Assembly: GCA_902783595.1 (NCBI GenBank)
Contig: CACZRR010000008.1
Span: 1-34,706, forward strand
Source: an uncultured Bacteroidota bacterium
GTDB taxonomy: Bacteria; Bacteroidota; Bacteroidia; Bacteroidales; P3
Length of the DNA: 34,706 nt
Direction: 5' to 3'
The notes beneath the pieces were generated by a model that was not told the origin of the DNA, did no database searches, and saw only the letters and a program-made list of their open reading frames with translations. Positions 4,698 through 27,366 of the stretch are shown one piece after another. Both the position numbers and the translations under genes were made by a program. Each line of letters begins with the position of its first letter. The stretch's first letter is position 1.

Positions 4698-5753
4698 TCA
4701 GATAATAAGCATGGCGTCGCCGTAGGTTGAGAAACGGTATTTTTCCTTGATGGCCGTCTGGTAGGTCTGCATGGTGAGTTCGGGGCCTGCGAAGGCAGAC
4801 ACCATGATGAACTGTGACGACATGGGGTGGTGGAAATTGGTGACCATCATGTCGGCGATGGTGAACTCGTAGGGCGGGAATATGAACTTGTTGGTCCATC
4901 CGTCGTAGGGGAAGAGGTGACCTGGGATGGTGACGGCGCTCTCGAGGGCGCGCATCGTCGTGGTGCCCACGCAGCATATCTTGTGACCTTCCTGTTTGGC
5001 TTTTTCGACTATCTGGCATGTGGTGTCGGGGAGGTGCATCTCCTCGGCGTCCATGCGGTGCTTGGAGAGGTCTTCGACGTCGATGCTTTTGAACTCGCCC
5101 ATGCCGGCATGCAGCGTCAGCTCGGCCCAGCGGACATCCTTGATCTCGAGGCGTTTGAGCAGCTCGCGGCTGAAGTGGAGGCCTGCGATAGGTGCCGCCA
5201 CGGCGCCTTCGTTTTTGGCGTAGAGCGTTTGGTAGTTGTCGGTGTCGCTCTTCTCAATGTCGCGCAGTTTGCGCAGTTCCTCGGGCAGGGGGGTGCGTCC
5301 CATGCTCTTGATCAGCGAGATGAAATCCTCGTGGGGGCCGTCGTAGAGGAAGCGTATGGTGCGTCCGCGCGACGTTGTGTTGTCCACCACCTCGGCGACG
5401 AGGGCGTCGTTGGCGCCGAAATAGAGCTTGTTGCCGATGCGTATCTTGCGTGCGGGATCGACTATGACGTCCCAGAGGCACATCTCTTCGTTGAGCTCGC
5501 GGAGGAGGAACACCTGGATGTGGGCGCCTGTCTTCTCCTTTTCGCCCTCGAGGAGGGCGGGGAAGACCTTGGTGTTGTTGGCCACCACGACGTCGTCGGC
5601 ATCGACATAGTCGATGAAGTCTTTGAAGATACGATGTTCCACCTTGCCGGTGTCGCGATGGAGTACCAGCATACGTGCATCGTCGCGGTTGCGCGGGGGT
5701 TTCTCGGCGATGAGTTCCTTGGGGAGGTTGAATCGGAATTGGGACAGTTTCAT
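4698..5753 (-). CDS. queA: S-adenosylmethionine:tRNA ribosyltransferase-isomerase
   Basis: QueA transfers and isomerises the ribosyl part of SAM onto preQ1 in tRNA, forming epoxyqueuosine at the wobble position of GUN anticodons. The 351-residue protein matches the family along its length: an N-terminal [12 protein letters not shown] start, a central [11 protein letters not shown] motif, and a C-terminal [15 protein letters not shown] stretch. It is the first gene of a minus-strand run with rarA. The ATG at 5751-5753 is directly preceded in the mRNA by A-rich heptamer repeats, the last of which ends inside the start codon; no Shine-Dalgarno is obvious. Confidence 0.96.
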
Positions 5754-5780
5754 TTGGGGTTTGACGTTTGACGTTTTACG
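5753..5780. repeat. Heptamer tandem repeat at the queA start (locus 1)
   Basis: Four 7-bp units run in tandem on the plus strand, two of them exactly TTTGACG (5760-5766, 5767-5773), flanked by TTTGGGG (5753-5759) and TTTTACG (5774-5780). Read in the queA sense these are words of the form NNNNAAA, including CGTCAAA and CGTAAAA. CGTAAAA recurs twice at 26306-26333. The tract forms the last part of the queA leader. Confidence 0.75.
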
Positions 5781-6032
5781 GCTGTTATTTTTAACGGCGA
5801 ATGACTTGAATTACTCTAAGCTTATTCACTTTATTTGACTTATTTCTGCGGTGTTCATCGCCCCTTGTGGGGGTCGCGGGTCAATTATGAGCGAGTTACT
5901 CGAATTGCTGGCGCAGGCATTTATGAAATAAATCATTTTGTGGTGTGTAACGTCATTTTAAAAAAAATTGTATGCGTGGCAAAAAAAAAATACATAATGA
6001 AATAATTATAATAAAAATACGTTACGGAGGTC
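5781..6032. other. Divergent intergenic region between queA and the transglycosylase gene
   Basis: This AT-rich gap holds an 11-mer, TAACGGCGAAT (5792-5802), that recurs exactly at 19246-19256 beside another heptamer tract. It also holds a small GC-rich hairpin (CCCC-TTGT-GGGG, 5861-5872), a CGAGT-T-ACTCG palindrome (5892-5902), and an inverted pair GTAACGT (5947-5953) / ACGTTAC (6019-6025). I find no convincing -33/-7 promoter on either strand, although both flanking genes need one. Confidence 0.5.
5947..6025. promoter_or_regulatory. Separated inverted repeat upstream of the transglycosylase gene
   Basis: GTAACGT (5947-5953) is matched by ACGTTAC (6019-6025), with the similarity extending through the adjoining AT-rich bases to about 15 imperfect positions per arm (5947-5961 and 6011-6025). 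The right arm runs into CGGAGG (6025-6030), the probable ribosome binding site, just before the ATG at 6033. It could be paired protein sites or a long-range leader stem that hides the ribosome site. Confidence 0.35.
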
Positions 6033-7295
6033 ATGAGATGTAAATATTGTATTATCTTTACTCTTCTGCTAGCATCGTTGCCGGTCAGTGTCTACGATGT
6101 TCACTCACAAGACATTACTTTTCTCTCAGAGGGTGAGATTATGGCTCGTCGTTATGCCGAGAGCTACGACAGCCTGCTGAACAGTTACTACCTTCACCGC
6201 TATGCGTCGCGTCGCCACGGTGGCGGAGGACTGAACCTGGAGGCTTTTGATGCGCTGCCCGATTCTGTGCTTGCCGCGCGTCTGGCTGCGTTGCACACCA
6301 TCATCCCTATGACCTACAATGGCGATGTGCGGTCGCACATTCGTCTCTACCTGCGCGTGATGGAACGGCGTCTTGACCTGACGTTGCTGCAGCAGGAGAC
6401 CTTCTTTCCGATGTTTGAGACGGTGCTTGACCGCTATGGTGTTCCTGGCGAGCTGAAGTATCTGGCCATCGTCGAGTCGGCCCTCAACCCGCAGGCCACC
6501 TCGCGTGTTGGTGCCGCGGGGTTGTGGCAGTTCATGTATAACACCGGCAAGCTCTACGGTCTTGAGGTGAACTCGCTTGTCGACGAGCGTCGCGACCCCT
6601 ACAAATCCACCCATGCTGCGGCGCGCTATCTGAGGAGCCTGTACCGTCTCTACGACGACTGGGCGTTGGCGTTGGCAGCCTACAACTGTGGTCCCGGCAA
6701 CATCAACAAAGCCATTGCGCGTTCAGGCGGCCATCGTGATTTCTGGCGCATCTATCCCTACCTGCCGCGTGAGACGCGCGGATATGTGCCTGCTTTCATC
6801 GCCGTGAACTATGTGATGAATTACTACCACCTCCACGGGCTTCATCCCGCGGCGTTGGAGTTGCCGGTGCGCAGCGACACGGTGCATGTGAGTGGCGACG
6901 TGCTGTTCCACTATGTGCGTGAATCCCTCGCCGTCGACAGTGGAGCCCTGGCCACCCTCAATCCGCAGTTTCGTGCCGAATATATCCCTGCCTCTACGGG
7001 CAACTACCATATCACGCTGCCGTCGTCGCTGGTGCACGCATTCATCGTCAACCAGGACAGCATCTATGCCCGCAGTGCCGACAGCCTTGCGCGGCGTCCC
7101 GTCACTGTAGAGCCTTATAGGGCGAAGAAAAGTGCCAAGAGCGCTAAAGTCGGCGGCACGAGCCATGTGGTGAAGAAAGGGGAGACGCTGTCGAGCATAG
7201 CCCGCCGCTATGGTGTGTCGGTGAAGCAGCTGAAAAAGGATAACGGCATCAAGAAGGACAATATCCACGTGGGACAGCGACTGAAAATCAGATAG
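6033..7295 (+). CDS. MltD-like lytic transglycosylase with LysM domain
   Basis: This 420-residue exported enzyme cleaves peptidoglycan glycan strands, forming 1,6-anhydro-muramic ends. After a signal peptide (about 1-26) comes an SLT domain with the catalytic Glu148 in [10 protein letters not shown], then GAAGLWQFM (160-168) and AAYNCGPGN (215-223), all hallmarks of family 1 transglycosylases. A C-terminal LysM domain (about 376-419, starting [14 protein letters not shown]) binds peptidoglycan. The ATG at 6033 follows a CGGAGG. The stop codon is one base before the next ATG, so it is co-transcribed with an FtsB-like gene and an NlpC/P60 gene, forming a small cell-wall cluster. Confidence 0.93.
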
Positions 7296-7296
7296 C

Positions 7297-7584
7297 ATGG
7301 ATTGGAAGCATATCTATAAGATAAAGGGGTTCAAATACTGGGTGGCCACGGCTGTTTTCGTCGTCGTCATCCTCTTCATCGACCCCAACAACCTGCTCGT
7401 CACCCACCGGCTGCACCGCCAGGTGTCAGAGCTGCACGATGAGGAGCGCCAGTTGCGAGTGGACATACATCAGGATTCCATCAATGCTGCCGCCATAGAG
7501 CAGAACCTCGACGCCATAGAGCATTACGGTCGCGAGAACTACTACATGAAACGTACGAACGAAGATATTTTTGTTGTGAGATGA
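7297..7584 (+). CDS. FtsB/DivIC-like septum formation initiator protein
   Basis: This 95-residue protein has one membrane helix near the N-terminus (about residues 14-30), then a periplasmic coiled coil rich in Leu, Glu and Gln, and a conserved tail resembling the AREKYMKR-type end of DivIC/FtsB (here GRENYYMKRTNEDIF). Family members link FtsL and FtsQ in the division complex. It starts one base after the transglycosylase stop and its TGA overlaps the start of the next gene (ATGA). Confidence 0.85.
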   Translation: MDWKHIYKIKGFKYWVATAVFVVVILFIDPNNLLVTHRLHRQVSELHDEERQLRVDIHQDSINAAAIEQNLDAIEHYGRENYYMKRTNEDIFVVR

Positions 7585-8183
7585 GCCGTCGCATCCATAT
7601 TGTCGTCCTTCTTTTTGCCGCTGTGCTCTTCACGGGTTGTGAGGCGCTGAAGGGCTTCATGTCTCGCGACCTTGCCGATGAGGATTTCATCATCGGGCAG
7701 CTCTATGTCGACGAGATGGTGCGCGAGACCCCTGTCATCTCGTCGCGCACGCTGGCGGAGCAGAGGCCCGTCGGTGGCCGCAGCAACGCCCTGGGTCTCA
7801 CCTACAGTGCTTCCGACAATGCCGCCCTCTACGAGGCTGTGGCATCGTGGTTGGGGGTACCCTATAAATATGGTGGCGACGACCGGTCGGGCATCGACTG
7901 CTCCGCCTTTGTGGGCGCCATCTATAATGAGGTCTACAAGGTGACGTTGCGACGTACGACCAATGATATGTTGCGCGACGTGACCCTCGTGGCCAAGAGG
8001 GACCTCCAGGAGGGCGACCTGCTCTTCTTCACCAATTCGAAGGGCAAGGTGGCACATGTGGGCATCTACCTTAAGGACAACCTCTTCGCCCATGCCAGCA
8101 CCTCCAATGGCGTCAGCGTGAGTCGTCTGAGTGACAATTACTGGCAGAGCCACTTCTACAAGGGTGGAAGGGTAAATCGATAA
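7581..8183 (+). CDS. NlpC/P60 (C40) peptidase lipoprotein
   Basis: A 200-residue cell-wall endopeptidase predicted to cut stem peptides of peptidoglycan. A lipobox (LFTGC, Cys20) predicts lipid anchoring in an envelope membrane. The C40 domain spans about 82-195 with catalytic Cys107 in GIDCSAF, His159 in KVAHVGIYL, and a third polar residue, His171. The substrate-site region SWLGVPYKYGG precedes the Cys as in other members. The ATG overlaps the FtsB-like stop (ATGA), so translation is probably coupled. It is the last gene of this plus-strand cluster. Confidence 0.92.
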   Translation: MSRRIHIVVLLFAAVLFTGCEALKGFMSRDLADEDFIIGQLYVDEMVRETPVISSRTLAEQRPVGGRSNALGLTYSASDNAALYEAVASWLGVPYKYGGDDRSGIDCSAFVGAIYNEVYKVTLRRTTNDMLRDVTLVAKRDLQEGDLLFFTNSKGKVAHVGIYLKDNLFAHASTSNGVSVSRLSDNYWQSHFYKGGRVNR

Positions 8184-8202
8184 CAGAAAACAGATTTACT
8201 GG

Positions 8203-8240
8203 GCTTTCCGGTCACGCGGTGCTGGAAAGCTCTTATTTTG
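8203..8240. terminator. Hairpin between convergent genes
   Basis: GCTTTCC (8203-8209) and GGAAAGC (8224-8230) pair with a 14-base loop that can itself form CAC-GCG-GTG. On the plus strand it is followed by TCTTATTTTG, a weak T tract, so it can end the transglycosylase-FtsB-NlpC message. The T tract overlaps the last codons of the opposing SUI1 gene. Confidence 0.55.
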
Positions 8241-8535
8241 TGCGGCTATACCCCATGGTGCGCAGAAGGGTGGTGACTTTTTCTTTGAGCTCGCCCTGGA
8301 TGACGATCTCGCCCTCTTTGGCGCTGCCGCCCACACCACATTTGTTTTTGAGTGACCGCGCGAGGTCGTTGAGGTCGTCGTCCGTGCCCACGAAGCCACG
8401 CACGAGTGTGACTGTTTTGCCGCCACGATGGTGACGTTCGATGCTTACGCGCAGCTGCTGCCGGTCGGGGGAAAGGGTCTCTACCGTCTCTTCCTCCTCA
8501 CACATCAGATCGGGATTGGTGGAGTATACGAGCAT
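8233..8535 (-). CDS. SUI1/YciH-family translation initiation factor homologue
   Basis: This 100-residue protein is a bacterial YciH, homologue of eukaryotic eIF1/SUI1. The conserved core is RGGKTVTLVRGF (around 38-49), a KNKCGVGGSAKEG stretch (around 63-75), and a C-terminal amphipathic helix. In E. coli YciH is linked to start-site discrimination; its role in Bacteroidota is inferred only. It lies 13 bases after the lipid kinase gene and is the last of the minus run from the DUF349 gene. Confidence 0.9.
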   Translation of the reverse strand: MLVYSTNPDLMCEEEETVETLSPDRQQLRVSIERHHRGGKTVTLVRGFVGTDDDLNDLARSLKNKCGVGGSAKEGEIVIQGELKEKVTTLLRTMGYSRTK

Positions 8536-8548
8536 GGGTGTGGTATAA

Positions 8549-9421
8549 TTACATGATGGTGATGGCGCCCGGCTGTATGGCGAAACGGAGGGGGGCGCCT
8601 ATCTTCATGGCTTCGCCGTCGACGTTGACCCAACTGCCGACATTGCCTTCGACGACGATGTCGCGAGCTTGGTACATTTCGGCATGCTGCGAGTGGTCGA
8701 GGTGGCCGCTGAAGGCCAGAGGTGCCGTGATGGCGAGGTGGTCGAGCGGTATCTTGTCGATGATGCTAAGGTCCATGAGGCCGTCATCGACCTGGGCTTT
8801 GGGGGCGATGATGAGGTTGTTGCCGTACTGGCGGCTGTTGGCGATGGCCATGATCCATGCGTTGCGCACGATGGTCTGTCCGTCGACGGTGATGGTGTAG
8901 GATGCCGAGGGATAGGAGGTGTATTCGCGGAGGAAGAGGCTGGTATATGCCGCCATACCGCGATGTTTGGCCAGCTTCATGAGGCGTGCGAGATGCGCGT
9001 CGAAGCCCACGCCCGATGCGTTGATGGAGAGCGTCTTGTCGTTGATGAGGATGGCGTCGATGGTGCGTGCCTGGGAGTGCCCGAACCGTTGGATAGCCTT
9101 GGTAGGGGAGAGAGGTATCTCGAGTGTGCGCGCCAGCCCGTTGCCGCTGCCGCAAGGTATGATGCCGAGGGCCAGGGGGGTGCCGCGGAGCCCTTGTACG
9201 ATGTCGTTGACACTGCCGTCGCCGCCGACAGCCACCACGATGTCGTAGCCCTCGTCGGCAGCGTCGCGTGTGAGGGTGGTGCCGTGGTGCTCATGCTCGG
9301 TGTAGACGATGTGATGGTCGAAGAGGTCGTGGTCGAGGTGGCTGGAGAGCAAAGACTCGATATTTTTCTGGCGTCCGACGCCGGAAACGGGGTTGACGAT
9401 GACGAGCATCTTTTTTTTCAT
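8549..9421 (-). CDS. Diacylglycerol/lipid kinase-family protein (DagK/YegS type)
   Basis: The 290-residue protein belongs to the DAGK catalytic family, which phosphorylates diacylglycerol or related lipids with ATP. It shows the N-terminal VIVNPVSG motif (about 7-14), the nucleotide-binding GGDGSVND (66-73), and IIPCGSGNGLAR just after, followed by the C-terminal beta-sandwich domain with a DGLMDLSI motif. Length is normal. It sits 18 bases after gldB. Whether the substrate is diacylglycerol or another lipid cannot be told from sequence. Confidence 0.92.
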   Translation of the reverse strand: MKKKMLVIVNPVSGVGRQKNIESLLSSHLDHDLFDHHIVYTEHEHHGTTLTRDAADEGYDIVVAVGGDGSVNDIVQGLRGTPLALGIIPCGSGNGLARTLEIPLSPTKAIQRFGHSQARTIDAILINDKTLSINASGVGFDAHLARLMKLAKHRGMAAYTSLFLREYTSYPSASYTITVDGQTIVRNAWIMAIANSRQYGNNLIIAPKAQVDDGLMDLSIIDKIPLDHLAITAPLAFSGHLDHSQHAEMYQARDIVVEGNVGSWVNVDGEAMKIGAPLRFAIQPGAITIM

Positions 9422-9439
9422 AGTGCAGCGTGGTAGGGG

Positions 9440-12339: not shown

Positions 12340-12370
12340 TTTCAATGGGTTTTGTTTGTTAGAATTACTT

Positions 12371-12421
12371 CTGTAGCAAAATGTTACAGGATATTTACCA
12401 TGCGCCGCACCTGTGCGGCGC
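12371..12421 (-). promoter_or_regulatory. Structured 5' leader of the DUF349 gene
   Basis: Two hairpins lie in the 80-base leader. The first is a perfect 9-bp GC-rich pair, GCGCCGCAC (12402-12410) / GTGCGGCGC (12413-12421), which falls at or within one or two bases of the predicted mRNA 5' end. The second pairs CTGTAGC (12371-12377) with GTTACAG (12383-12389), including one G-U. A 5'-terminal stem could protect the message from decay; an operator function at DNA level is equally possible. Confidence 0.5.
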
Positions 12422-12427
12422 TAAATG

Positions 12428-12457
12428 CAAAGATACAAAAAAATATAGAGATGGCAA
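12428..12457 (-). promoter_or_regulatory. Bacteroidota-type promoter of the DUF349-gldB-kinase-SUI1 run
   Basis: On the minus strand TTG (12455-12457) is followed after exactly 19 bases by TATCTTTG (12428-12435), a full match to the -7 consensus TAnnTTTG. The predicted start is near 12421-12423. The -33 TTG lies inside the right arm of the priA terminator hairpin, so terminator and promoter share bases. Confidence 0.8.
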
Positions 12458-12480: not shown

Positions 12481-12504
12481 TGTGTGTTTTTTATGGCGCA
12501 GTTA

Positions 12505-15000
12505 TCATACGGGATCTACGTCGTAGTGGATAGAGAGCGCTGTCATTCCTTGCTGCTTTTTGAGGTCGTCGCCAGCCTGCATGATGAGGGGTTTTGCGTC
12601 GGCGATGGGTTCGCTCTTCTCAAAACGCAACATAATCGTTTTGAGGTAAAGTCCGCGTATGCGTGTCACCAGCGGGTATTCGGGTCCCACGACGCGAGGT
12701 CCGAAGAGGGTGCGAAGTTGTGCGGCGAGGCTGTCGGCGGCGCTATTGAGGGTTTCTGGGGAGCGGTGACGCAGGGTGATGGTGATGAGGCGGTGGTAGG
12801 GTGGGTAGCGGAACATCTGGCGCTCGCGGAGGAGGAGGGATGTGAGGTCGGACTCAGAGGTCGGAGTTCGGATGTCGGATTCGGAGGACGGAGTATGGAG
12901 GTAGGAGAGGGGTAGCTGAGCGGGGTTGAATGTCTGGATGATGACTTGGGCGCCGCTGGCGTGACGTCCGGCGCGTCCTGCCACCTGCTGTATGACCTGG
13001 TAGGCGCGCTCCACGGCGCGGAAGTCGGGGTAGTTGATGATGCTGTCGGCGGCGGGGATGGCCACGAGTGCGACATGCTGGAAATCAAGTCCCTTGGTGA
13101 CCATCTGTGTACCCACCAGGATGTCGATACGGCGGTTGGCGAAATCGTCGACCGTCTGGAAATGGGTGTTTTTATTGTTGGCGCTGTCGAGGTCGAGGCG
13201 TGCAATACGTGCGTCGGGGAAGAGTATCTGCAGGTCTTCCTCTATGCGTTCTGTCCCGGCTCCATCCATCTTGAGGTGTGAGGAGTGGCAGGCGGGGCAC
13301 TGCTCGGGCACGGGGATGGAATAGCCACAGTAGTGGCAGCGTAGCGTGGCGGTGGACTTGTGATAGACGAGAGAGACATCGCAATGGATGCACTGCGGGA
13401 TGTGGTGACAGTCGTCGCATACGAGATGGGGTGCGAACCCGCGGCGGTTTTGGAATATGATGCACTGCTTGCCGGCGGCGAGTGTTTGCGTGATAGCGTC
13501 GAGGAGCTGCTGTGAGAAATGGCCGTGCATGTGATGGTCACGGTAGGCCTGCCGCAGGTCGACGATGTGCAGTGTGGGCAGTGGCATCCCTGCATAGCGG
13601 TGTTTTAGTGTGGCAAGGGTGTACTTGCCTGTGGCGGCGTTGAGGATGCTCTCGAGGGATGGCGTTGCGCTGCCAAGTAGTGTGGCGGCGTGCCACTGTG
13701 ACGCCAGGAGCAGCGCGGCGTCGCGTGCATGGTAGCGTGGTGCGGGGTCCTGCTGCTTGTAGGAGGCGTCGTGTTCTTCGTCGACAATGACAAGGCGCAG
13801 ATCCTGGAAAGGGAGGAAGAGAGCGCTACGTGCTCCGAGGAGCAGACGGTAGCGGGATGCCGGCGGTGCGGCGGTGCGGCGCCACACCTCTATACGCTGG
13901 CTGCTGGCGAGGCGCGAGTGGTAGACGCCTATGGTGGTGCCGAAGTAGCGGCGCAGGCGCTGGATGAGGTGCTCGGTGAGTGCTATCTCGGGGAGGAGGA
14001 GGAGCGCTTGAGATCCTGCCGGCGTGGTGGCGAGGATATGGTGTATGAGGCAGATGTAAACTTCCGTTTTGCCGGACGACGTGACGCCGTGGAGCAGTGT
14101 GGGGCGCGAAGACGAGCGGATGGTGTCGAGCGCCTGCTGCTGCTCGTCGGAGAGGGTGGGGAGGGATTGTGTGGTAGGCGGCTGGGGGTCGGAGGTAGGC
14201 GCTGTGTTCTGTATGGTGAGAGGATCGCGCTGTTCGACAAGAAGGATGCCGTTTTTGATGAGTGTGATGAGAGGAGATCCCTGGGGGAGGTCGCGGCGTG
14301 GTATAGCGTCGTAGTGGAAATGGGAGAGCTGGAGGTAGCGCATGAGTATGTCGCTCTGCGCTGTACGGCGATGACGCTCGAGGTCGTCGAACAGTAGCTT
14401 CAGGGCCTCCTCGTCGCGGTAGTCCTCGGCGAGGACGACATAGGGTATAGTGCGCGGCCGATAGGTGTCGCGCAGTTCCTCGGTGAGGAGTATCACCTCA
14501 TTCTCCACCATTGTCTTGACGAGGGGGAGTATTTTCTGCTGCCCTACGGCGGTGGCGATGTCGGCGAGGCGCATGGTAGGGTGGCTGCTGAGTAACGTTA
14601 CCACCTGCATCTGTTGTTTGCTGAGGGCGGAGAGGTCGCCGCTCCACTGGGGGTTGATGGCTACGGTGGTCTCGCTGGCGAGCTTGAAAGCGCCGGGTAG
14701 GGCCACACTCATGACGTCGCCAGGATAGCACATATAGTAGCGTGCGAGCCACTCCCAAAAAGAGAATTGGTGCTCGTCGACGATGGGTGCCAGGTCGAGG
14801 ACGGAAAGAATATACTTACAACGATAGGGAGGTGCCTGGTCGTGGATGCGCCGCACAAGGGCGGAATAGAGGCGTGACCCACTGTTGCCGAACTGCACAA
14901 CGACACGCACGCCGACGGCGACAGATGCCTCGAGGTCGCGGGGTACACGATAGGTGTAGGTGGCGGGGATATGCAGTGGCAAGAGGAGGTCGACAAACAT
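12505..15000 (-). CDS. priA: Primosomal protein N' (PriA helicase)
   Basis: PriA recognises stalled forks and reloads the replisome. The 831-residue protein has the N-terminal DNA-binding domain, Walker A GVTSSGKT (305-312), a DEEH Walker B box in VIVDEEHDASYKQ, and eight zinc-binding Cys in four CxxC pairs at about 527-573. It is roughly 100 residues longer than E. coli PriA. Part of the excess is two low-complexity stretches, 267-276 before the helicase core and 698-718 before the C-terminal domain, both encoded by DNA with a 7-bp period. It has a candidate promoter upstream (15027-15034) and its own terminator. Confidence 0.95.
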   Translation of the reverse strand: MFVDLLLPLHIPATYTYRVPRDLEASVAVGVRVVVQFGNSGSRLYSALVRRIHDQAPPYRCKYILSVLDLAPIVDEHQFSFWEWLARYYMCYPGDVMSVALPGAFKLASETTVAINPQWSGDLSALSKQQMQVVTLLSSHPTMRLADIATAVGQQKILPLVKTMVENEVILLTEELRDTYRPRTIPYVVLAEDYRDEEALKLLFDDLERHRRTAQSDILMRYLQLSHFHYDAIPRRDLPQGSPLITLIKNGILLVEQRDPLTIQNTAPTSDPQPPTTQSLPTLSDEQQQALDTIRSSSRPTLLHGVTSSGKTEVYICLIHHILATTPAGSQALLLLPEIALTEHLIQRLRRYFGTTIGVYHSRLASSQRIEVWRRTAAPPASRYRLLLGARSALFLPFQDLRLVIVDEEHDASYKQQDPAPRYHARDAALLLASQWHAATLLGSATPSLESILNAATGKYTLATLKHRYAGMPLPTLHIVDLRQAYRDHHMHGHFSQQLLDAITQTLAAGKQCIIFQNRRGFAPHLVCDDCHHIPQCIHCDVSLVYHKSTATLRCHYCGYSIPVPEQCPACHSSHLKMDGAGTERIEEDLQILFPDARIARLDLDSANNKNTHFQTVDDFANRRIDILVGTQMVTKGLDFQHVALVAIPAADSIINYPDFRAVERAYQVIQQVAGRAGRHASGAQVIIQTFNPAQLPLSYLHTPSSESDIRTPTSESDLTSLLLRERQMFRYPPYHRLITITLRHRSPETLNSAADSLAAQLRTLFGPRVVGPEYPLVTRIRGLYLKTIMLRFEKSEPIADAKPLIMQAGDDLKKQQGMTALSIHYDVDPV
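12847..12907. repeat. GC-rich heptamer repeat inside priA (residues 698-718)
   Basis: Nine near-tandem units, seven of 7 bp and two of 6 bp, cover 61 bp. On the coding strand most have the form NTCCGAN or CTCCNNN (for example CTCCGAC, ATCCGAC, ATCCGAA, CTCCTAC). They encode a Ser/Glu/Asp/Thr-rich stretch with SSESD and TSESD repeats, just before the conserved RERQMFRYPPYHRL segment. The same word CTCCGAC occurs in the second priA tract at 14188-14194. Confidence 0.7.
14174..14201. repeat. Second heptamer repeat inside priA (residues 267-276)
   Basis: Four exact 7-bp units in tandem; on the plus strand the first and last are both GTAGGCG (14174-14180, 14195-14201) and the third is GTCGGAG (14188-14194). 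They encode a Pro/Thr/Ser-rich linker (APTSDPQPPT) immediately before the helicase core. GTCGGAG also occurs in the other priA tract. Confidence 0.65.
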
Positions 15001-18524: not shown

Positions 18525-19229
18525 TATTAAGAAAACTGTGTTGTGCTTGTGCAGGTTGAGAGCGAGGCGCTCTGTTTTCCATTGCGAGCAGGGTAGGGTG
18601 CGAATAATCTGCGAGGGCAGGGTGATGTCGCATGCCACGCAGATGAGCGTGTCGCTGCGCAGCGTTGCGCAAAGAGCTTCAAGCATCTGGTTGTTGCGAT
18701 AGGGCGCCTCGATGAAGAGTTGCGTCTGATGTTCACGCCACACACGGTCCTCGAGATGACGCAGTGCGGCGTATCGTCGCGAACGGTCGACGGGGAGGTA
18801 GCCATTGAAAGCGAAAGATTGCCCATTAAGGCCACTGGCCATAAGTGCCAGAAGCAATGACGAAGGGCCGACGAGAGGCAGCACCTCGATGGCGCGCTGC
18901 TGAGCAATGGCGACGATGGCGGCGCCAGGATCGGCAATGCAGGGGAGACCTGCTTCGGAGAGCAAACCTACATTGTTTCCGTCGGCTATGGGGTCGAGAT
19001 ACGATCCAATATCGCTGGTCGACGTATGTTCGTTGAGTTCGAAGAAAGCAACGTCATCAATCGGGATTGGATAACCGGCACGCTTCAGAAAACGGCGGGC
19101 TGTGCGTATTTCTTCGACGATAAAGGTGTGGCAGGTCTCCAGCCAACGTTTGTTTTCTGTTGGGAGCACAGCATCGAGCAGTTCGCCACCGATGGCGACA
19201 GGGAAGAGTATGAGTTTACCTTTTTTCAA
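18510..19229 (-). CDS. Tetrapyrrole-methylase-fold SAM methyltransferase (RsmI-like)
   Basis: A 239-residue member of the family that includes RsmI, which 2'-O-methylates C1402 of 16S rRNA. Visible family marks are the N-terminal LILFPVAIGG (RsmI has LYLVPTPIGN), GLLSEAGLPCIADPGA (about 88-103), LPLVGPSSLLLALMASGL, and the FIEAPYRNN motif near 172. It is shorter and more diverged than E. coli RsmI, as in the Bacteroidota paralogue, so the target is not certain. The only plausible start is TTG (19227-19229), which lies within a heptamer repeat. Confidence 0.85.
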   Translation of the reverse strand: MKKGKLILFPVAIGGELLDAVLPTENKRWLETCHTFIVEEIRTARRFLKRAGYPIPIDDVAFFELNEHTSTSDIGSYLDPIADGNNVGLLSEAGLPCIADPGAAIVAIAQQRAIEVLPLVGPSSLLLALMASGLNGQSFAFNGYLPVDRSRRYAALRHLEDRVWREHQTQLFIEAPYRNNQMLEALCATLRSDTLICVACDITLPSQIIRTLPCSQWKTERLALNLHKHNTVFLIGSPQ

Positions 19230-19256
19230 GTTTGAGGTTTTATTATAACGGCGAAT
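19224..19256. repeat. Heptamer repeat plus TAACGGCGAAT word (locus 2)
   Basis: Three 7-bp units (TTTCAAG 19224-19230, TTTGAGG 19231-19237, TTTTATT 19238-19244) are followed after one base by TAACGGCGAAT (19246-19256). Read leftward the units have the NNNNAAA form; CCTCAAA recurs at 26320-26326. The TTG start of the methyltransferase lies in the first unit. The same composite (heptamers then TAACGGCGAAT) precedes queA. Confidence 0.65.
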
Positions 19257-19289: not shown

Positions 19290-19790
19290 TCATTCATTTG
19301 GGTTTAGGGTTTTAGGGGGTGTTTGTAACGCATTGCTCCATTCTTCAAGTTGCATGATGGCGCGGTGGTGGCCACCGAAGTGCATCACATAGGGCCAAGT
19401 ATATTCCTTTTCCTGGTACTTGAGGAATCGTTGCACTTCGCGTACGATGAAAAGCAATGCGCCCCATTTATTAGCCAGCAGCCATTTGAGTGAATCTACA
19501 TCTTTCTGACAAGCCATAGCGAAACGTAGATTGACGGTGGTCATTGCGTGGCGAATCCAGTCGATAGCCTTATTGTCTCCGTCACAGGCGTTGCTGAGGA
19601 TGGCGAGCCAGGCATAGTTGTTTTTGAAAAGCCAAACCATGGCGTCGTCGTCGCCGCGGACGGCGTTGCTGAAGGCTGCCAGCTGTGGGTATCCTGCATC
19701 CAGCAGCCAGTGGAAGAAATCGCTGCGACCGGCAATGCTCTTGGATAACGCGAGAAGCACTTTGACGGGATACTGCTCGAGGCCTTTCAT
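19290..19790 (-). CDS. Unknown protein of five 25-residue helical repeats
   Basis: I do not recognise a named family. The 166 residues divide exactly into five 25-residue units (1-125) plus a 41-residue tail. Units 2-5 each have Trp at position 3 followed by Leu or Ile. Units 1-3 keep a hydrophobic-Ala-x-Ser/Ala pattern at positions 12-18, and the first three also share Gly at 21. Unit 2 (FHWLLDAGYPQLAAFSNAV) and unit 3 (MVWLFKNNYAWLAILSNAC) are the closest pair. Predicted structure is a helical-hairpin solenoid, suggesting a binding role. There is no signal peptide or membrane segment. Its ATG overlaps the TrmH stop (ATGA). Its last codons are encoded by a heptamer tract. Confidence 0.8.
   Translation of the reverse strand: MKGLEQYPVKVLLALSKSIAGRSDFFHWLLDAGYPQLAAFSNAVRGDDDAMVWLFKNNYAWLAILSNACDGDNKAIDWIRHAMTTVNLRFAMACQKDVDSLKWLLANKWGALLFIVREVQRFLKYQEKEYTWPYVMHFGGHHRAIMQLEEWSNALQTPPKTLNPNE
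19296..19316. repeat. Heptamer tract in the 3' end of the repeat-protein gene (locus 3)
   Basis: ATTTGGG (19296-19302), TTTAGGG (19303-19309) and TTTTAGG (19310-19316) run in tandem. On the coding strand they read as A/C-rich heptamers of the NNNNAAA kind and supply the tail residues PKTLNPN just before the stop. The repeat therefore forms the C-terminus of the protein. Confidence 0.55.
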
Positions 19791-20338
19791 GTTTTATGGG
19801 TTATGAGTTTATATATTTCCCAGATTACGATGGCGGCGGCGCAGCTGACGTTGAGTGAATGTTTGGTGCCGCTCTGTGGTATCTCGATGAAGGCATCGCA
19901 GAGAGCCATCACCTCCTCAGCTACGCCGTCGATTTCGTTGCCGAAGACGACAGCCACCTTCTCGCCTGCGCGCTGCAGAGCGATGCGGGCATCCTCCTCG
20001 CCTAACTTGATACTGCCGTGGGCGATTTCGACGGCGAAGACCCGATAGCCGTTGTCCTTGAGGTTACGCACATAATGAGCTGTGTCGTCATGATGGCTCC
20101 ACGCCACGCTGTCTTCGGCGCCGAGGGCCGTCTTGTGGATCTCGCGATGTGGCGGTGTGGCGGTGATGCCACAAAGTGCTATGTGATCAACACGGAAAGC
20201 GTCGGCGGTGCGGAACACGGAGCCGATATTGTTCAGCGACCGCACATTGTCAAGCACAACTGTGAGGGGCAGTTTTTCTGCCTTGCGGAACTCCTCGACG
20301 CTCATGCGCTGCATCTCTTCTGTCGTCAATTTCTTCAT
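19787..20338 (-). CDS. TrmH/SpoU-family RNA 2'-O-methyltransferase
   Basis: A 183-residue SPOUT methyltransferase. It carries the three SpoU motifs: DNVRSLNNIGSVFRTADAF (about 30-48, with the conserved Asn and Arg), VVFGNEIDGV (about 128-137), and the knot-forming IPQSGTKHSLNVSCAAAI (about 153-170). The target could be tRNA (as for TrmH/TrmL) or rRNA. A GGAGG lies 8 bases before the ATG. It starts 13 bases after sufB, and its TGA overlaps the next ATG. Confidence 0.93.
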   Translation of the reverse strand: MKKLTTEEMQRMSVEEFRKAEKLPLTVVLDNVRSLNNIGSVFRTADAFRVDHIALCGITATPPHREIHKTALGAEDSVAWSHHDDTAHYVRNLKDNGYRVFAVEIAHGSIKLGEEDARIALQRAGEKVAVVFGNEIDGVAEEVMALCDAFIEIPQSGTKHSLNVSCAAAIVIWEIYKLITHKT

Positions 20339-20351
20339 ATTAGATCCTCCC

Positions 20352-21812: not shown

Positions 21813-23164
21813 GCTGTTTGCAATTGTCTATTTATTTTAATGATATAGGGTAATGCCAAAAGGAAGGTGAGCACGTCGGCAATGCCCTGCGCCATCTCCA
21901 CACCGTGCAGTCCTAGCAGTAATGGCAGTAGCAGTACGGCGGGCAGAAAGAAGAGACCATTGCGACAAATACTCAAAAGAGTGGCGGGAGCCGTCATACG
22001 GATATTTTGGAAGAGCATACCTGTGGCCGTAAACGATGCCACCAAGGGAAATGCACCACACTGCCACCGAAGGGTACGTGATCCTATGGATATCACAACA
22101 GGGTCGTCGGCACGAAAAAGGGCCACTATCTCTGGCGCAAAAACAATACCTATCGCTGAGGCCACCAGCAAAAAGGCTGTGCCCATCGTGATGGCAAAAA
22201 GCCACGACTGGCGTACTCTCCCGTAGAGGCCTGCACCGTAATTGTAGCCACAGACGGGCTGGAACCCCTGGCAGAATCCCAGCACAACGCTGAAAACAAA
22301 CATCATGACACGCGACACAATGGCAAAAGCCGCCACAGCCGCCGCCGCTTGCCCTGGCCCAGCATAGCGCGCCGCCTGGTGGTTGAGGATGATGACAGCA
22401 GCACAGTTGAACGCCTGGCGGAACAATGATGGCAAGCCCCCACGCACTATCTCGTAGTAGATATGCAGCGAAGGACGGAAATTTAACAGCCGCAGGTGCA
22501 CACTCTCGGGCCTAAAAGTGCCCGCAAGCAATAGGCTCCACGACAATGTCTGACTGATGGCGGTGGCTAACGAGGCTCCCGACACGCCCATATCAAAACC
22601 AAAAATAAGTATAGGGTCAAGGACAATATTAATGATGGCGCCACCAACAATACCCACCATACCCAGCCGCGCATTGCCTTGCAGGCGCAATTGGTTATTG
22701 AGCGTCAGTGCCGACATCATGAAGGGCGACGCTAGAACAATATAGCGCAAGTAGTCAGATGCGAAAGGCACCACTTCGGATGGAGCTCCTAGCATTCGAC
22801 TCAAACCATCTAGACTCGGAAGACACACCACGACGACGATAAACCCAAGCAGCAAAGGTGTGAAGAAACCTACACTGGCCATCACGCCCGCCTCGTCACG
22901 CCGACGCGCCCCAAGTGCTCGTGAAATGAAGTTGCCGCTCCCGTGCCCAAAGAAAAAACCCAATGCCTGGATGAAGGTCATGAAGGCAAACGACACACCC
23001 ACTCCAGCGGTACCCTCTGTGGAGAGACGCCCGACAAAAGCGGCGTCGACCACATTGTAGAACGCCGTGGTAACCATAGCCACCACCGTCGGCAACGCCA
23101 TGCGGCACACCAACCGTCGTACGGGCTGCTGCGTCATCTCTGCATATTTGTCGTCGAGGGTCAC
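21809..23164 (-). CDS. MATE-family efflux transporter
   Basis: A 451-residue inner-membrane protein with about 12 hydrophobic helices and the two-fold MATE repeat. It resembles the DinF/NorM-like group that exports drugs or metabolites using Na+ or H+ gradients. Typical pieces are [15 protein letters not shown] at the N-terminus, [20 protein letters not shown], and [17 protein letters not shown] in the second half. The assigned start is a GTG sharing one base with the protease stop (TAGTG); an ATG nine codons inside (23135-23137) is the alternative. Its stop overlaps the sufB start. The substrate is unknown. Confidence 0.9.
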
Positions 23165-24306
23165 TATCTAAGAATATCCGTAGTTCCTTTTATATTCAGC
23201 AGCTGCGCTTTGACGGTCCGCGTATGACCGTCGCGCACAAATTCGACATCCACGCTGTCGCCGGGACTGAACAAGCCCAACTCTTCCGTGAGCTCTGCGA
23301 AGGTGTTCACCTCCTTGCCCTCTATGCGCAAAATCACGTCGCCTCCCTGCAGACCGGCACGCTCGGCTGCACACTCTTTCGTGAGATTCACCAAAAAGAG
23401 GCCTTTCGTGTCGCGCAGACCTACACGACGCGCCACCGTGGCGTCCACCTCAGTGACCTGAATGCCCAGATAGGCGCGTTGCACTCGTCCGTAACGTTGC
23501 AGGTCGGCAGCCACCTTGGCGGCGATATTGCTTGGGATCGCAAACGAATAGCCGATATAGTTGCCGCTATTGCCTCCCGCTATGGCCGTCACGATGCCCA
23601 CTAATGTGCCGTCGGCAGCCACCAATGCCCCTCCACTGTTGCCCGAGTTGACAGCAGCGTCGGTCTGTAGAAACGACTCCAACGGTGTGTCGTTGGTCTT
23701 GTTGTTTTCGATGATGTGCATGTTGCGAGCTTTTGCACTGATGATGCCACTGGTCACCGTAGAGGTCAGGTTGAAGGGGTTGCCAATGGCAAGCACAGGC
23801 TCCCCTACCCGCACAGCATCACTGTTGCCAAAAGGTATAAACGTCAGCCCTTCGGCATCTATCTTGATCACCGCCAAGTCGGTGGCTGGATCATGTCCAA
23901 CAAGACGCGCCGGCAACTCTCGCCGGTCGTTGAGGGTGACAACTATGCGTTCGGCATCCTGTACCACATGGTTATTGGTGACAATGTAGCCATCACTGGT
24001 GATGATAACACCCGACCCATAGGCGTTGTACACCTGTTTCTGAACACCCTGCTGGATGATAAAACCAAAAAACGATTGGTAGAGGGGCGTGAGCTGCGTC
24101 ATCTCCGTACGGATATGCACTACCCCATCGATCGTAGATGCCGCCACCTCCGTAAAGTCCATCACACGACAGCGCCCTAGTTCGGCATACTCCTTTCCTC
24201 GCTCTCCTCCAACTACAGCAACGTCCCTCGTGTCCGCTCTCTCCTCCTGTGCATCGCACGACATCGTAAGGAACGCCATCATCAATGCAAAAACAACCTT
24301 TTTCAT
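23164..24306 (-). CDS. HtrA/DegP-like serine protease lipoprotein with one PDZ domain
   Basis: A 380-residue S1C protease for envelope protein quality control. The lipobox LTMSC (Cys17) predicts a lipid anchor. The trypsin-like domain has His113 in VTNNHVV, Asp143 in ATDLAVI and Ser224 in GNSGGAL, a complete triad. A single PDZ domain follows (about 285-370), making it DegS-like in layout, whereas the usual Bacteroidota DegP has two PDZs and about 500 residues. It begins 52 bases after dxs and its TAG overlaps the MATE GTG. Confidence 0.92.
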   Translation of the reverse strand: MKKVVFALMMAFLTMSCDAQEERADTRDVAVVGGERGKEYAELGRCRVMDFTEVAASTIDGVVHIRTEMTQLTPLYQSFFGFIIQQGVQKQVYNAYGSGVIITSDGYIVTNNHVVQDAERIVVTLNDRRELPARLVGHDPATDLAVIKIDAEGLTFIPFGNSDAVRVGEPVLAIGNPFNLTSTVTSGIISAKARNMHIIENNKTNDTPLESFLQTDAAVNSGNSGGALVAADGTLVGIVTAIAGGNSGNYIGYSFAIPSNIAAKVAADLQRYGRVQRAYLGIQVTEVDATVARRVGLRDTKGLFLVNLTKECAAERAGLQGGDVILRIEGKEVNTFAELTEELGLFSPGDSVDVEFVRDGHTRTVKAQLLNIKGTTDILR

Positions 24307-24335
24307 ATCGCTATATCCTCTATTTTAATTACAAA

Positions 24336-24370
24336 TCTCCACTTTCCACTTTTAACTTTTATATTTCCAC
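24336..24370. repeat. Heptamer tract between dxs and the HtrA-like gene (locus 4)
   Basis: Five consecutive 7-bp units, with TTTCCAC at 24343-24349 and again at 24364-24370, and related words such as TTTTAAC and TTTTATA. The tract covers the dxs stop codon and its last codons (GVEI) as well as part of the 52-base gap. Read leftward, several units fit the NNNNAAA form. Confidence 0.65.
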
Positions 24371-26269
24371 ACCCATAACTCTCCCATATATTCCCTCTGC
24401 ATCGATACCGCAAAGATGCTTTAGCTCACCCACGCTGCCGTGCATCACAAACGTGTCGTCGATACCCAGCACCGTCGTCTTCCCCGTCATCTCGGGGTGT
24501 TTGTCGGCAAAGTAGCACATCACCGCCTCTCCAAAGCCTCCTTTCTTCACACCGTCTTCCACAGTCACCACCTTCTCATAGGCGCCTTGCGCCACCTCGT
24601 CCAGCAGGTCTTCATCCAAGGGCTTCAAAAAGCGGATATCATAGACATCCGTTGACCAACCCTCTCCACGCAGCCTCTCGGCAGCCTGCAACGCGTCATG
24701 CAGCACGGCACCTATGCACACCAACGCCACACTCCTCCTCGCCTCCATTCCCCCGACATTTGCCGAGCCTTTGCCATTAGCGGACATGAAAATCTTCCTG
24801 CCTTTTCCTACCTCCAACGCCTCCAGCTCACAGCGCCAGTCGGCGAGTACTCCCGCGCCTCGAGGATAACGTATGACGAAAGCCCCATCCCCGGACACAC
24901 AGGCAGTATACATCATGCGGCGTAACTCGTGCTCATCGCTCGGCGCCGCTATGGTGAGGTTGGGAATGGGACGCAACATGGCCAAATCAAAAGCCCCATG
25001 ATGCGTGGCTCCGTCCTCCCCCACCAATCCTGCACGATCCAGGCAGAGCACAACATGCAGCTTCTGTAACGCCACGTCGTGCACAATCTGGTCATAGGCC
25101 CTCTGCGCAAAAGAGGAGTATATGTTGCAAAATGGCGTCATACCACCCGCCGCCAGCCCCGCGGCAAAGGTGACAGCATGTTGCTCCGCAATGCCTACAT
25201 CAAAAGTGCGCTCCGGAAAGCACTCCATCATCCCCGTCATCCCACAGCCCGTAGCCATCGCCGGCGTGATGCCCACCACCGTCGCAAAGCGCTCCGCCAG
25301 CTCCACAAGGGTGGCGCCAAACACATCCTGGTACTTCGGCCCCTTCCCTTCACTCCGCTGCGCAATCCGCTCTCCTGTGGCGGCATTGTAACGTCCGGGA
25401 GAGTGGTAGGTCACCGGGTTCTCCTCGGCACGCCGCAAGCCCCTCCCCTTGCGGGTCACCACGTGCAGCAGCACCGGTCCCTCTATGCCCTTCAGGCGCT
25501 GCAACGTCGCCACTAGGTGCGGCAAATCGTGCCCGTCGATGGGACCGAAATAGCGTATGCCTAACGCCTCAAAAAGGTTCGTGCGACCCAACGCCAGCGC
25601 CTTCGCCGTCTGCGTCAGCCGCGATAGCCAGCGCCGCCACCACTCACGTCCCTCAGTGTGCTGCCACACCTGTCTCTTCAACTCATTGTAGCGACGCGAC
25701 GAGGTTACCTTCAGTAAGTATCCATTCAACCCCCCCACGGCCTTGTCTATCGAGATGCCGTTGTCGTTAAGCACAACAAGGAGGTTGGCCTTCGAGGTGC
25801 CTGCGTTGTTCAAAGCCTCAAAGGCCTCGCCACCCGTCAGCGCACCGTCACCAATCACAGCAATATGTTTGCGTCCCACATTCCCCGCCAGCCGAGAGGC
25901 CGTAGCCATCCCCAACGCCGCAGAAATCGACGTCGAGCTGTGTCCCGTGCCGAAAGCGTCATATTCGCTCTCCTCGCGGCGCGGAAAACCACTGATGCCA
26001 CCCATCGTGCGTATGCCAGCAAAGGCCTCCCGCCGTCCGGTCAAAATCTTGTGACCGTAGGCTTGATGACCCACGTCCCACACTAACTTGTCGTCGGGCG
26101 TATTGAAGACATAGTGCAACGCCACCGTCAACTCCACCGTCCCCAAACTCGACGCCAGGTGTCCCGGATGCGTCGACAAGGTCTCTATGATATATCCGCG
26201 TAACTCGTCAGCTACGCCACGCAGTGCCTCTACAGGCAACCGCCGCAATTCTTCTGGACTGTCTATCAA
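24359..26269 (-). CDS. dxs: 1-deoxy-D-xylulose-5-phosphate synthase
   Basis: Dxs makes DXP from pyruvate and glyceraldehyde-3-phosphate, the first step of the MEP isoprenoid pathway and of thiamine and pyridoxal supply. The 636-residue protein has the N-terminal HPGHLASSLGTVELTVAL, the catalytic-loop WDVGHQAYGHK, the thiamine-diphosphate GDG motif in GDGALTGGEAFEALNNAG, and the C-terminal transketolase domains. The start is TTG (26267-26269) preceded by AGAGGAG at good spacing; an in-frame TAA lies six codons upstream, so there is no ATG option. It is about a dozen residues shorter at the N-terminus than typical homologues. Confidence 0.95.
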   Translation of the reverse strand: MIDSPEELRRLPVEALRGVADELRGYIIETLSTHPGHLASSLGTVELTVALHYVFNTPDDKLVWDVGHQAYGHKILTGRREAFAGIRTMGGISGFPRREESEYDAFGTGHSSTSISAALGMATASRLAGNVGRKHIAVIGDGALTGGEAFEALNNAGTSKANLLVVLNDNGISIDKAVGGLNGYLLKVTSSRRYNELKRQVWQHTEGREWWRRWLSRLTQTAKALALGRTNLFEALGIRYFGPIDGHDLPHLVATLQRLKGIEGPVLLHVVTRKGRGLRRAEENPVTYHSPGRYNAATGERIAQRSEGKGPKYQDVFGATLVELAERFATVVGITPAMATGCGMTGMMECFPERTFDVGIAEQHAVTFAAGLAAGGMTPFCNIYSSFAQRAYDQIVHDVALQKLHVVLCLDRAGLVGEDGATHHGAFDLAMLRPIPNLTIAAPSDEHELRRMMYTACVSGDGAFVIRYPRGAGVLADWRCELEALEVGKGRKIFMSANGKGSANVGGMEARRSVALVCIGAVLHDALQAAERLRGEGWSTDVYDIRFLKPLDEDLLDEVAQGAYEKVVTVEDGVKKGGFGEAVMCYFADKHPEMTGKTTVLGIDDTFVMHGSVGELKHLCGIDAEGIYGRVMGVEI

Positions 26270-26291
26270 CTCTGTCTCCTCTATTTAATTC

Positions 26292-26333
26292 TTATAAACC
26301 TTAAACGTAAAACTCAAAACCTCAAACGTAAAA
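26292..26333. repeat. Heptamer tract upstream of dxs (locus 5)
   Basis: Six in-phase 7-bp units of the form NNNNAAA. CGTAAAA occurs at 26306-26312 and 26327-26333, and CCTCAAA at 26320-26326 next to the related CCTTAAA at 26299-26305, so three units also make a 21-bp higher-order repeat. CGTAAAA is shared with locus 1 (queA) and CCTCAAA with locus 2. On the minus strand, TACGTTTG (26323-26330) matches the -7 consensus and could start dxs mRNA within the tract. The rest of the gap to 26375 is AT-rich with weaker repeats. Confidence 0.75.
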
Positions 26334-26375
26334 CATCACTTAGAACTTAAAAATTATGATTTAGGACTAAAAGAC

Positions 26376-27293
26376 TTACAATTTAGAGCCCCTCCCCTGC
26401 GCCCCCTCCACGCGCTGCCATTTGCCGTCTACCCACTGCCACGCAACCTCCGTGCCAGAGGGATAGTACCACTCGAACAGGCCCTCCATTCCAGCCACCT
26501 GGGCCTCCACTTCGTCATATAATATCACCCTCTCCTTCCTCTCCTTCACCTTCTCCACTGTGCGGTGGCGCTTCGTGCCCCTCACCTTCTCTCGCTTCCG
26601 CTCCACCGTCTGTATCACCCGGTCGCCATAGCTTAGGTTCACCACAGCCTCATTGCTGTATTCCAAGACAATGCGGCGCAGATTGCGCTCGCGGCGGAAG
26701 ATCGGCGCGCCGAACTGCACCCTGCCGCCGCGCAGCGTCACAGGTTCTACAATCTTGCGCTCCGTGAGGTTGTCCACGCCGTTCCACCCCAGCAGGGTGT
26801 AGTACGTTCTGTCGCCCGCGCGTGTCTCTATCAAGGATTGGTATACCGCGCCCAGCCAGTGGCTCGCGTCGAGGACAGTCTCCTCTCGGTTCACGATTTC
26901 GTCACTCTTGTCCGTCAGCACCGTGTGTCGGTACTCTTCCTCACGCTCGTCGTAGTACTGCATCACACCGAAGCATTCGAACTCCCCGTCGTCGCGTACC
27001 ACAGCCCACGAGAAAACACGCAACTTGCCATCCCCCGACGTTAACACGGAGACATAGTCCCCCAACTCCCAGCGCCACCGTTGGCTGCTCTCCTCATCCA
27101 ACGCCGCCAGTAACTGCTGCATGGCTTCCTCCGAGGCCAGGTAGCGCTCGTTGTCCGTGGCGGCACCTTCCACTCGGGTGAACAAGGTCTTCAGCACCCG
27201 CTGATGACGCCCCATAGCATCCTTGTCTTGTCCGCAGACAGACGAGGAGATCATCACATGCAGAAGTGCAAGAAGGAGCATTTTTTTCATCAT
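26376..27293 (-). CDS. Secreted protein of unknown function
   Basis: I do not recognise a named family. The 305-residue protein has a Sec signal peptide (about 1-22, ending VCGQ). The body is mainly beta-strand-like with Trp/Tyr-rich stretches (WRWELGDYVSVLTSGDGKL, YYTLLGWNGVDNLTERK). A strongly basic segment lies at about 233-256 (KREKVRGTKRHRTVEKVKER), and the C-terminus has an FEWYYPSGTEVAWQWVDGKWQ segment. It is probably periplasmic. It is divergent from clpC and upstream of dxs, and it has a candidate promoter -7 at 27379-27386. Confidence 0.85.
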   Translation of the reverse strand: MMKKMLLLALLHVMISSSVCGQDKDAMGRHQRVLKTLFTRVEGAATDNERYLASEEAMQQLLAALDEESSQRWRWELGDYVSVLTSGDGKLRVFSWAVVRDDGEFECFGVMQYYDEREEEYRHTVLTDKSDEIVNREETVLDASHWLGAVYQSLIETRAGDRTYYTLLGWNGVDNLTERKIVEPVTLRGGRVQFGAPIFRRERNLRRIVLEYSNEAVVNLSYGDRVIQTVERKREKVRGTKRHRTVEKVKERKERVILYDEVEAQVAGMEGLFEWYYPSGTEVAWQWVDGKWQRVEGAQGRGSKL

Positions 27294-27324
27294 ACGCTAA
27301 AACTAAAAAAAAGATGGTTTATTG

Positions 27325-27366
27325 TTCTAAATTCTAAATTTTGATTTCTAAATTCTAAATTATGAA
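27325..27366. repeat. Heptamer tract between the secreted-protein gene and clpC (locus 6)
   Basis: Six consecutive 7-bp units; four are exactly TTCTAAA (27325-27331, 27332-27338, 27346-27352, 27353-27359). The arrangement gives two identical 16-bp copies 21 bp apart. The tract would lie in the leader of the leftward gene. Confidence 0.8.

Follow-up and report, generated by a model that had tools for sequence, protein, structure and literature searches.

Dispersed heptamer repeats in bacteria

Tandem heptanucleotide repeats of the STRR type, in which CCCCAGT is a known word, are dispersed in cyanobacteria and vary among strains. The Rickettsia palindromic elements, which are longer palindromic repeats, are inserted in frame in protein-coding genes. 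Dispersed bacterial heptamers, those within open reading frames (ORFs) included, are already in print in the consulted portions of two papers, as direct repeats of TAACTGA in Beggiatoaceae, Cyanobacteria and some Bacteroidetes (MacGregor, 2015; PMC4679880) and as GGGNATC-type heptamers in Xanthomonas and Nostoc (Rehm, 2015; PMC4692102). The subject here is a set of arrays with a period of 7 bp in a 34,706-nucleotide stretch of DNA (positions 1 to 34,706 of contig CACZRR010000008.1, assembly GCA_902783595.1; hereafter termed the window) from an uncultured Bacteroidota bacterium of the order Bacteroidales. An original prediction, made from the letters of the window alone, held that six such tracts belong to a dispersed family that reuses the same words at distant sites. 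The period-7 tracts are a real dispersed family with a limited set of reused words, fewer and rougher than had been claimed. The words are largely lineage-specific, with a partly different set in each species. This suggests that short repeats built from a few 7-letter words form a minor class of repeat DNA, one that may need no transposon of its own in order to spread.

Period 7 in the gaps of the source genome

The assembly from which the window comes (genome G000) totals 1.77 Mb in 112 contigs and is 80% complete; the window is its contig 8. Forty stretches of this genome (656 kb) were sampled, and a crude ORF caller yielded 282 gaps amounting to 47 kb. Segments of a gap matching themselves at a lag of 7 nt were called as tracts at a score of at least 11, and dinucleotide shuffles provided the null (30 for the 282 gaps, and 500 at each threshold for the 10 gaps of the window). 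The 282 gaps hold 34 lag-7 tracts, compared with a shuffled mean of 1.17 and a maximum of 5. Within the range from 5 to 11, no other unit length is as common as 7; lags of 11, 9 and 10 gave 17, 13 and 8 tracts, respectively (shuffled means 0.8–0.9), and lags of 5, 6, 8, 12 and 13 gave at most five tracts each. The longest arrays of the genome reach approximately 22 units and mix a few words (CGTAAAA, CGTCAAA, CATAAAA and CCTCAAA).

Tracts are present in 30 of the 282 gaps and in three of the 10 gaps of the window, and therefore the statement that such repeats fill most AT-rich gaps is wrong. The independence of their orientation from transcription, also proposed, holds, as gaps have a similar density of tracts whether they are co-directional (14 tracts in 19.7 kb), divergent (12 in 13.0 kb) or convergent (six in 6.7 kb).

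Shared words and their lineage specificity

Arrays scoring at least 13 were reduced to consensus words, giving 169 arrays from nine sampled genomes after one low-complexity array was dropped; the sample of a further genome, G036 (35 kb in small contigs), is excluded from these counts and is without any lag-7 run. In G000, 56 arrays form 81 pairs with the same word, compared with a mean of 5.5 and a maximum of 16 in 2000 letter permutations. Same-word pairs are likewise in excess of the letter-permuted values in G064 (77 versus 5.0), G028 (90 versus 13.6) and G002 (13 versus 1.4). Of 530 same-word pairs overall, 275 lie within one genome (label-permuted mean 102, maximum 154 of 2000). The 81 pairs are hard to account for by independent chance slippage, in agreement with the argument from shared words made earlier. 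A scan against shuffled gaps had been named as the analysis that could overturn the family; run on 656 kb of the 1.77 Mb, it leaves both the period-7 excess and the word sharing intact.

Comparison with congeners covered 120 genomes of the genus, G000 included. Three units of CGTMAAA match in three of these, G000 among them, and the reversed control gives zero matches in all. Three units of TTTCCAC match in 30 genomes, again including G000, and the reversed control, the related word CACCTTT, has many matches as well. The looser pattern of four TTKANNN units matches in 104 genomes (79 matches in G000 versus 13 for the reversed pattern), with a reversed control that is high in many genomes. From zero to several hundred matches are found across the 120 genomes, 16 being without any such array. 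A period-8 pattern with the same core matches in 87 of the 120 genomes and has no match in G000; therefore, a period of 7 is usual for this genome without being a rule across the genus, and other species can have units of 8 or 9. Period-8 arrays of the TTGATATG type are abundant in some congeners, and in G075 the period-8 pattern is matched 635 times.

At the level of the phylum, three units of the combined pattern TTTCMAY match in 23 of 395 genomes, G000 included, and the words TTTCCAC and TTTCAAC recur in unrelated genera. In 80 dxs loci (974 kb, nearly all from Bacteroidota by title), lags of 7, 8 and 9 give 34, 18 and 13 tracts, respectively, and lags of 5, 6, 10 and 11 at most five each; one lag-7 tract lies in the record of a named strain, Hufsiella ginkgonis (L095). 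In a Chitinophagaceae record (L098), inverted pairs of heptamer arrays with the words CGTGAGT and ACTCACG lie at 2341–2481 and 3899–3959 and are potential hairpins.

Arrays inside essential genes

For 77 of the 169 arrays, the larger part lies within ORFs of the crude caller. Named host genes include MurD, AlaS and LeuS (NCBIfam equivalogs over the cut-off). Several arrays lie, as judged by eye, in putative signal-peptide cores in G064, G001, G002 and G000 (e.g., IFNFQFSIFN before AQAQ), and others form C-terminal tails running to the stop codon. Words with stops on both strands account for 44 of the 92 gap arrays and nine of the 77 coding arrays (letter-permuted expectations 21.5 and 9.8, respectively), and words free of stops on both strands for 30 coding and five gap arrays (expectations 17.0 and 14.2), a split that is partly built in because ORF calling itself favours stop-free arrays. 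The word AAAGTGG (TTTCCAC), which is stop-free in all six frames, is coding in all of its 21 arrays.

The MurD genes of the best 30 of 116 matching genomes, ranked by nearness to the G064 protein, were compared with 20 more distant MurD genes, hand-picked from array-rich and array-free species alike. The 30 genes form one group (support 100/99 with a midpoint root) and hold 85 lag-7 tracts, present in 28 genes, versus none in the 20 outside congeners; other lags from 5 to 13 give zero to six tracts. Five loop sites were read at the DNA level, and the arrays are in frame. At site 2, lag-7 identity is at least 0.6 in 18 of the 30 genes, with a length of 33–36 nt; of the other 12 genes of the clade, seven have 27 nt and five have 33 nt. 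In 19 outside genes the site spans 30–39 nt, none reaching a lag-7 identity of 0.6. At site 5, period 7 is found in 20 of the 30 genes, and five more (G096, G098, G025, G114 and G108) reach at least 0.6 at another lag, which by eye is a period of 8; the sisters G090 and G108 (99/93) thus differ, with a period-7 and a period-8 array, respectively. Solved MurD relatives align through the places that hold arrays, and some of these places show gaps.

The MurD of G000 itself lies on contig 33 (L015) and is 96% identical to that of G064, whereas for dxs the best-scoring congener match has a DNA identity of 71%. Contig 33 is a mosaic with 70–94% identity to G064 and may have been transferred or mis-binned, so the case is not rested on this gene. 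In AlaS, site A carries TTGAAAA, GGAAAGT or GAGTTAA words, or an array-free loop of 24 nt (five genes); six of the 30 loci were without an anchor and were left unclassed.

Other inserts were seen in the same genes. A palindromic insert of the GATGCCAGTGGCATC type lies in frame in or beside the MurD heptamer array at site 5 of L245 and site 3 of L244; found in two related MurD genes at two different sites, it is perhaps a second in-frame repeat element. Repeats of the GTTGCAAC type occur in the AlaS loop that bears heptamer arrays in related species (site A of L283, L286 and L296; site B of L297). The AlaS match in G066 and G010 is split near residue 90 by approximately 55 nt, probably by another in-frame insert.

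The orthologous gap beside dxs

The gap between dxs and a 305-amino-acid ORF was read in 30 genomes, and a score of at least 9 was found in four (G000, G012, G066 and G096). The words differ among the four, except that G066 and G096 have the same words and are one unit apart. By eye, G010 has an array of GTGTTCA/GTGGTTA, and G002 and G126 have a period-9 inverted pair. No clear array is present in 23 of the 30 genomes.

Tracts and neighbouring genes in the window

For the six tracts of the window, the letters are as originally given, and four of the six stand out at lag 7; the period is not exact, as self-matches range from 9 of 14 to 18 of 21, and the other two tracts are at background. Shuffles of the 10 window gaps yield on average 0.13 segments scoring at least 8 and 0.014 scoring at least 11.

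The tract at 5753–5780 (TTTGGGG TTTGACG TTTGACG TTTTACG; score 14.4; 18 of 21 self-matches) lies between queA (– strand; Pfam Queuosine_synth) and an SLT/LysM gene (+ strand; Pfam SLT/LysM). On the – strand it belongs to the word family CGTMAAA, three units of which match at 5760–5780 (–) and at other sites of the genome. The tract at 24327–24366 consists of ACTTTCC/ACTTTTA units and scores 13.2, or 9.6 if cut to the gap. The dxs stop codon lies inside this tract; the dxs ORF (24359–26269, – strand; Pfam DXP_synthase_N) ends with GGAAATATAA. As originally delimited (24336–24370), this tract has 19 of 28 self-matches. The longest tract of the window, at 26295–26366 (CCTTAAA CGTAAAA CTCAAAA CCTCAAA CGTAAAA and further units; score 16.6), separates dxs from the 305-amino-acid ORF, both on the – strand, and has 23 of 35 self-matches within the originally predicted 26292–26333. 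The tract at 27325–27367 (TTCTAAA TTCTAAA TTTTGAT TTCTAAA TTCTAAA TTATGAA; score 18.4) contains a 21-bp higher-order copy (TRF period 21, 95% matches), with 27 of 35 self-matches for 27325–27366.

The two remaining tracts, at 19224–19244 (TTTCAAG TTTGAGG TTTTATT; score 5.6; 9 of 14 self-matches) and 19296–19316 (ATTTGGG TTTAGGG TTTTAGG; score 6.8; 10 of 14), are background because the whole window contains 46 lag-7 and 44 lag-8 segments scoring at least 5. In addition, 19296–19316 is not in a gap; it lies within the C-terminal codons of the ORF at 19290–19790 (– strand). The words CGTAAAA and CCTCAAA, said to be reused between distant tracts, are both present, but one copy of CCTCAAA is in a background tract.

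Neighbouring genes, by Pfam, encode QueA, SLT/LysM, TP_methylase, a trypsin/PDZ protease, Dxs and a Clp-type AAA protein; the ORFs at 19290–19790 and 26376–27293 have no Pfam match. Judged by raw score, further lag-7 stretches within ORFs of the window lie at 2619–2637 (score 12), 12854–12880 (11.2) and 19785–19809 (9.2).

Growth and spread of the arrays

It is an even call whether the arrays represent Bacteroidota-wide short tandem repeats, mostly heptamers, that are neutral or selfish, probably have no enzyme of their own, grow by slippage and are copied by template switching. Under this favoured explanation, replication slippage would make arrays grow and homogenise them. New arrays might arise through short template switches in replication, in which the growing strand would anneal to one arm of a hairpin or to another array, copy approximately 20–40 nt and then return, so that the local sequence would be overwritten. 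Selection would retain harmless arrays, with stop codons and the protein fold as filters: stop-bearing words would persist in gaps and at gene ends, and stop-free words in protein loops and signal-peptide cores, where three units equal 21 nt or seven codons.

Slippage alone is sufficient for array growth, higher-order repeats and one-unit steps. It explains poorly the lineage-specific words, the replacement of loops at similar length and the change of period. The latter features, and the inverted pairs, may be accounted for by short template switches that would partly proceed via hairpins. Template switching is expected to leave an inverted complementary copy near its source, and among 47 pairs of arrays lying within 200 bp of each other, 18 are inverted (5.9 expected from random pairs) and 10 are direct (6.3 expected), nine of the direct pairs coming from G028 or G002. 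Template switching between imperfect inverted repeats has been studied on coding DNA of yeasts, as the available part of one report describes (PMC8604942). Copying of the repeats by some mechanism, which the original prediction had offered, is plausible.

A stronger form of this explanation concerns one clade of the genus, in which a replication-borne, transposase-free sequence parasite would overwrite 20–40 nt in gaps and in loops of essential genes with a small lineage-specific lexicon; five MurD sites and signal-peptide cores would have been rewritten in this manner, with word turnover at a pace comparable to that of speciation. We put this forward tentatively and consider it somewhat less probable than its opposite.

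Several observations weigh against overwriting by copied words. Words vary by site within one genome, and therefore there is no single genome-wide dialect. Adjacent pairs are a minority, with 47 pairs among 246 arrays. Eight pairs of long arrays in G000 have a common block of at least 21 nt, a length that shuffling of the units equalled in 11 to 88 of 100 trials; long unit blocks are therefore not seen to be copied, and such copying was rejected. No fresh insertion with a donor, or with a close empty site, was found, the best dxs match in the genus having 71% DNA identity. The TTKA-rich species G028, G030, G143 and G122 have no MurD array. Finally, the absence of an enzyme was checked for the reverse transcriptase family RVT_1 only, and transposases were not searched for.

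That local slippage is the only process, slip-prone heptamers recurring from chance seeds without any copying between sites, is unlikely. In its favour, MacGregor (2015; PMC4679880) cites Mrazek (2007) for the finding that, in most genomes, no class of long simple repeats is commoner than that of heptanucleotides, and for the proposal of a polymerase footprint. The occurrence of TTTCCAC and TTTCAAC in unrelated genera (the 23 of 395 genomes with the combined pattern), the lack of a common unit order among arrays and the one-unit difference between G066 and G096 in the dxs gap all point the same way. However, the dominant words are lineage-specific, a pattern not expected from an intrinsic propensity to slip; MurD arrays replace native loops at similar length, with no added length; and both word and period differ between sisters at one site.

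A dedicated mobile or templated writer, such as a transposase, a reverse transcriptase or a carrier resembling a miniature inverted-repeat transposable element (MITE), is improbable. The wide and lineage-specific dispersal of the arrays would fit such a writer, as would G028, where arrays lie among longer interspersed modules, some of them inverted, which comprise a GGGTGGG link, a repeat containing GCCCAATGGCAACGCCTTGGG, and CACGGATTGCACGAAT (L104, L105 and L107). However, same-word sites lack common flanks: no cross-flank match was found among 10 such sites in G000, and one locus pair (L210 and L213) matches among 13 in G064. Dispersal as a MITE or as a repeat borne by an insertion sequence was rejected on this basis. 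RVT_1, present in 46 of the 120 genomes, was not found in G000 (80% complete) or in the array-rich G064, yet is present in five genomes without a TTKA array (G029, G082, G103, G131 and G132). As it does not track array load when compared by eye, a reverse transcriptase was rejected as the writer.

Still less probable are functional sites, at which selection would keep the words for binding of a regulator or nucleoid protein or for the seeding of promoters. The Bacteroidota promoter consensus is TTTG-N(19-21)-TAnnTTTG, and arrays of the CGTMAAA type match it by register, with 10 matches near six arrays of G000. However, tract density is alike in all three gap classes, 23 of the 30 genomes have no clear array in the orthologous dxs gap, words vary by species, arrays lie inside enzymes and 16 of the 120 genomes are without a TTKA array. 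Promoter seeding, suggested by the original prediction, was rejected: convergent gaps, which need no promoter, have a similar density; at four of the six arrays, those read together with the genes on both sides, two register matches point at a gene start and the other two oppose the direction of the gene; and many words, such as TTTCCAC, do not contain TTTG. A role in DNA bending was set aside by reasoning: with A-tracts 7 bp apart, only one unit in three falls in phase with a 10.5-bp turn. Regulatory roles are possible for single arrays and do not explain the family.

Chance or an assembly artefact, for which the fragmented state of the source assembly might speak, can be dismissed in view of the shuffles, the presence of in-frame arrays in orthologues from many separate assemblies and the tract in Hufsiella ginkgonis.

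The 120 congeners, array-free orthologous sites and invaded conserved genes make the question of the origin and spread of bacterial heptamers directly testable. If the overwriting explanation is true, a mutational process without a mobile-element enzyme would have supplied internal peptides of essential enzymes as well as signal peptides, and homology searches may meet peptides of the VESGKWK, STFHFPL, SIFNFQF and NYELRVK types as false kinship.

Comparison with known repeat systems

The cyanobacterial STRR repeats are tandem heptanucleotides like the arrays described here; the host group differs, and the word CCCCAGT is found in none of the 169 arrays. The Rickettsia palindromic elements are likewise repeat DNA in frame within genes, whereas the present elements are heptamer arrays without common ends. 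In the literature searched, mostly without subscription papers, neither a multi-word, lineage-specific lexicon invading internal loops of essential enzymes nor the peptides FNFQFSIFN and STFHFPLSTF and the strings KWKVESGKWKVE, NYELRIKNYELRI and ACTTTCCACTTTCCACTTTCC were found.

The long simple sequence repeats of Mrazek (2007) resemble the arrays in that a unit of 7 is the commonest class and slippage is the proposed cause. They are defined as a statistical class, and their description in the consulted portion of PMC4679880 does not cover word sharing between sites or turnover in coding loops.

The GGGNATC-type heptamers, as far as the available portion of PMC4692102 describes them, are also dispersed, intergenic as well as intragenic, and frequently arranged in inverted pairs (70 cases in Xcc). 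They are G-rich and form quadruplexes, whereas the present arrays are mostly A/T- or pyrimidine-rich, and three words of the G-rich type that were checked (GGGAATC, GGGGACT and GGGGATT) occur in none of the 169 arrays. Between two species, 83% of the positions of the GGGNATC-type repeats are kept (PMC4692102); the present arrays turn over, but among far more distant species.

The TAACTGA repeats, in the portions of PMC4679880 consulted, are likewise heptamers in short dispersed arrays, mostly intergenic and in some cases within ORFs, with stops in three frames, a patchy distribution and no evident mechanism. However, TAACTGA is a single word, which none of the 169 arrays carries, and the words here are many and lineage-specific. 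The Maribeggiatoa copies lie mostly just upstream of start codons, whereas the present arrays show no preference for a gap class. Where TAACTGA copies do enter ORFs, they lie mainly at protein ends (PMC4679880), whereas the present arrays lie in internal loops of essential enzymes.

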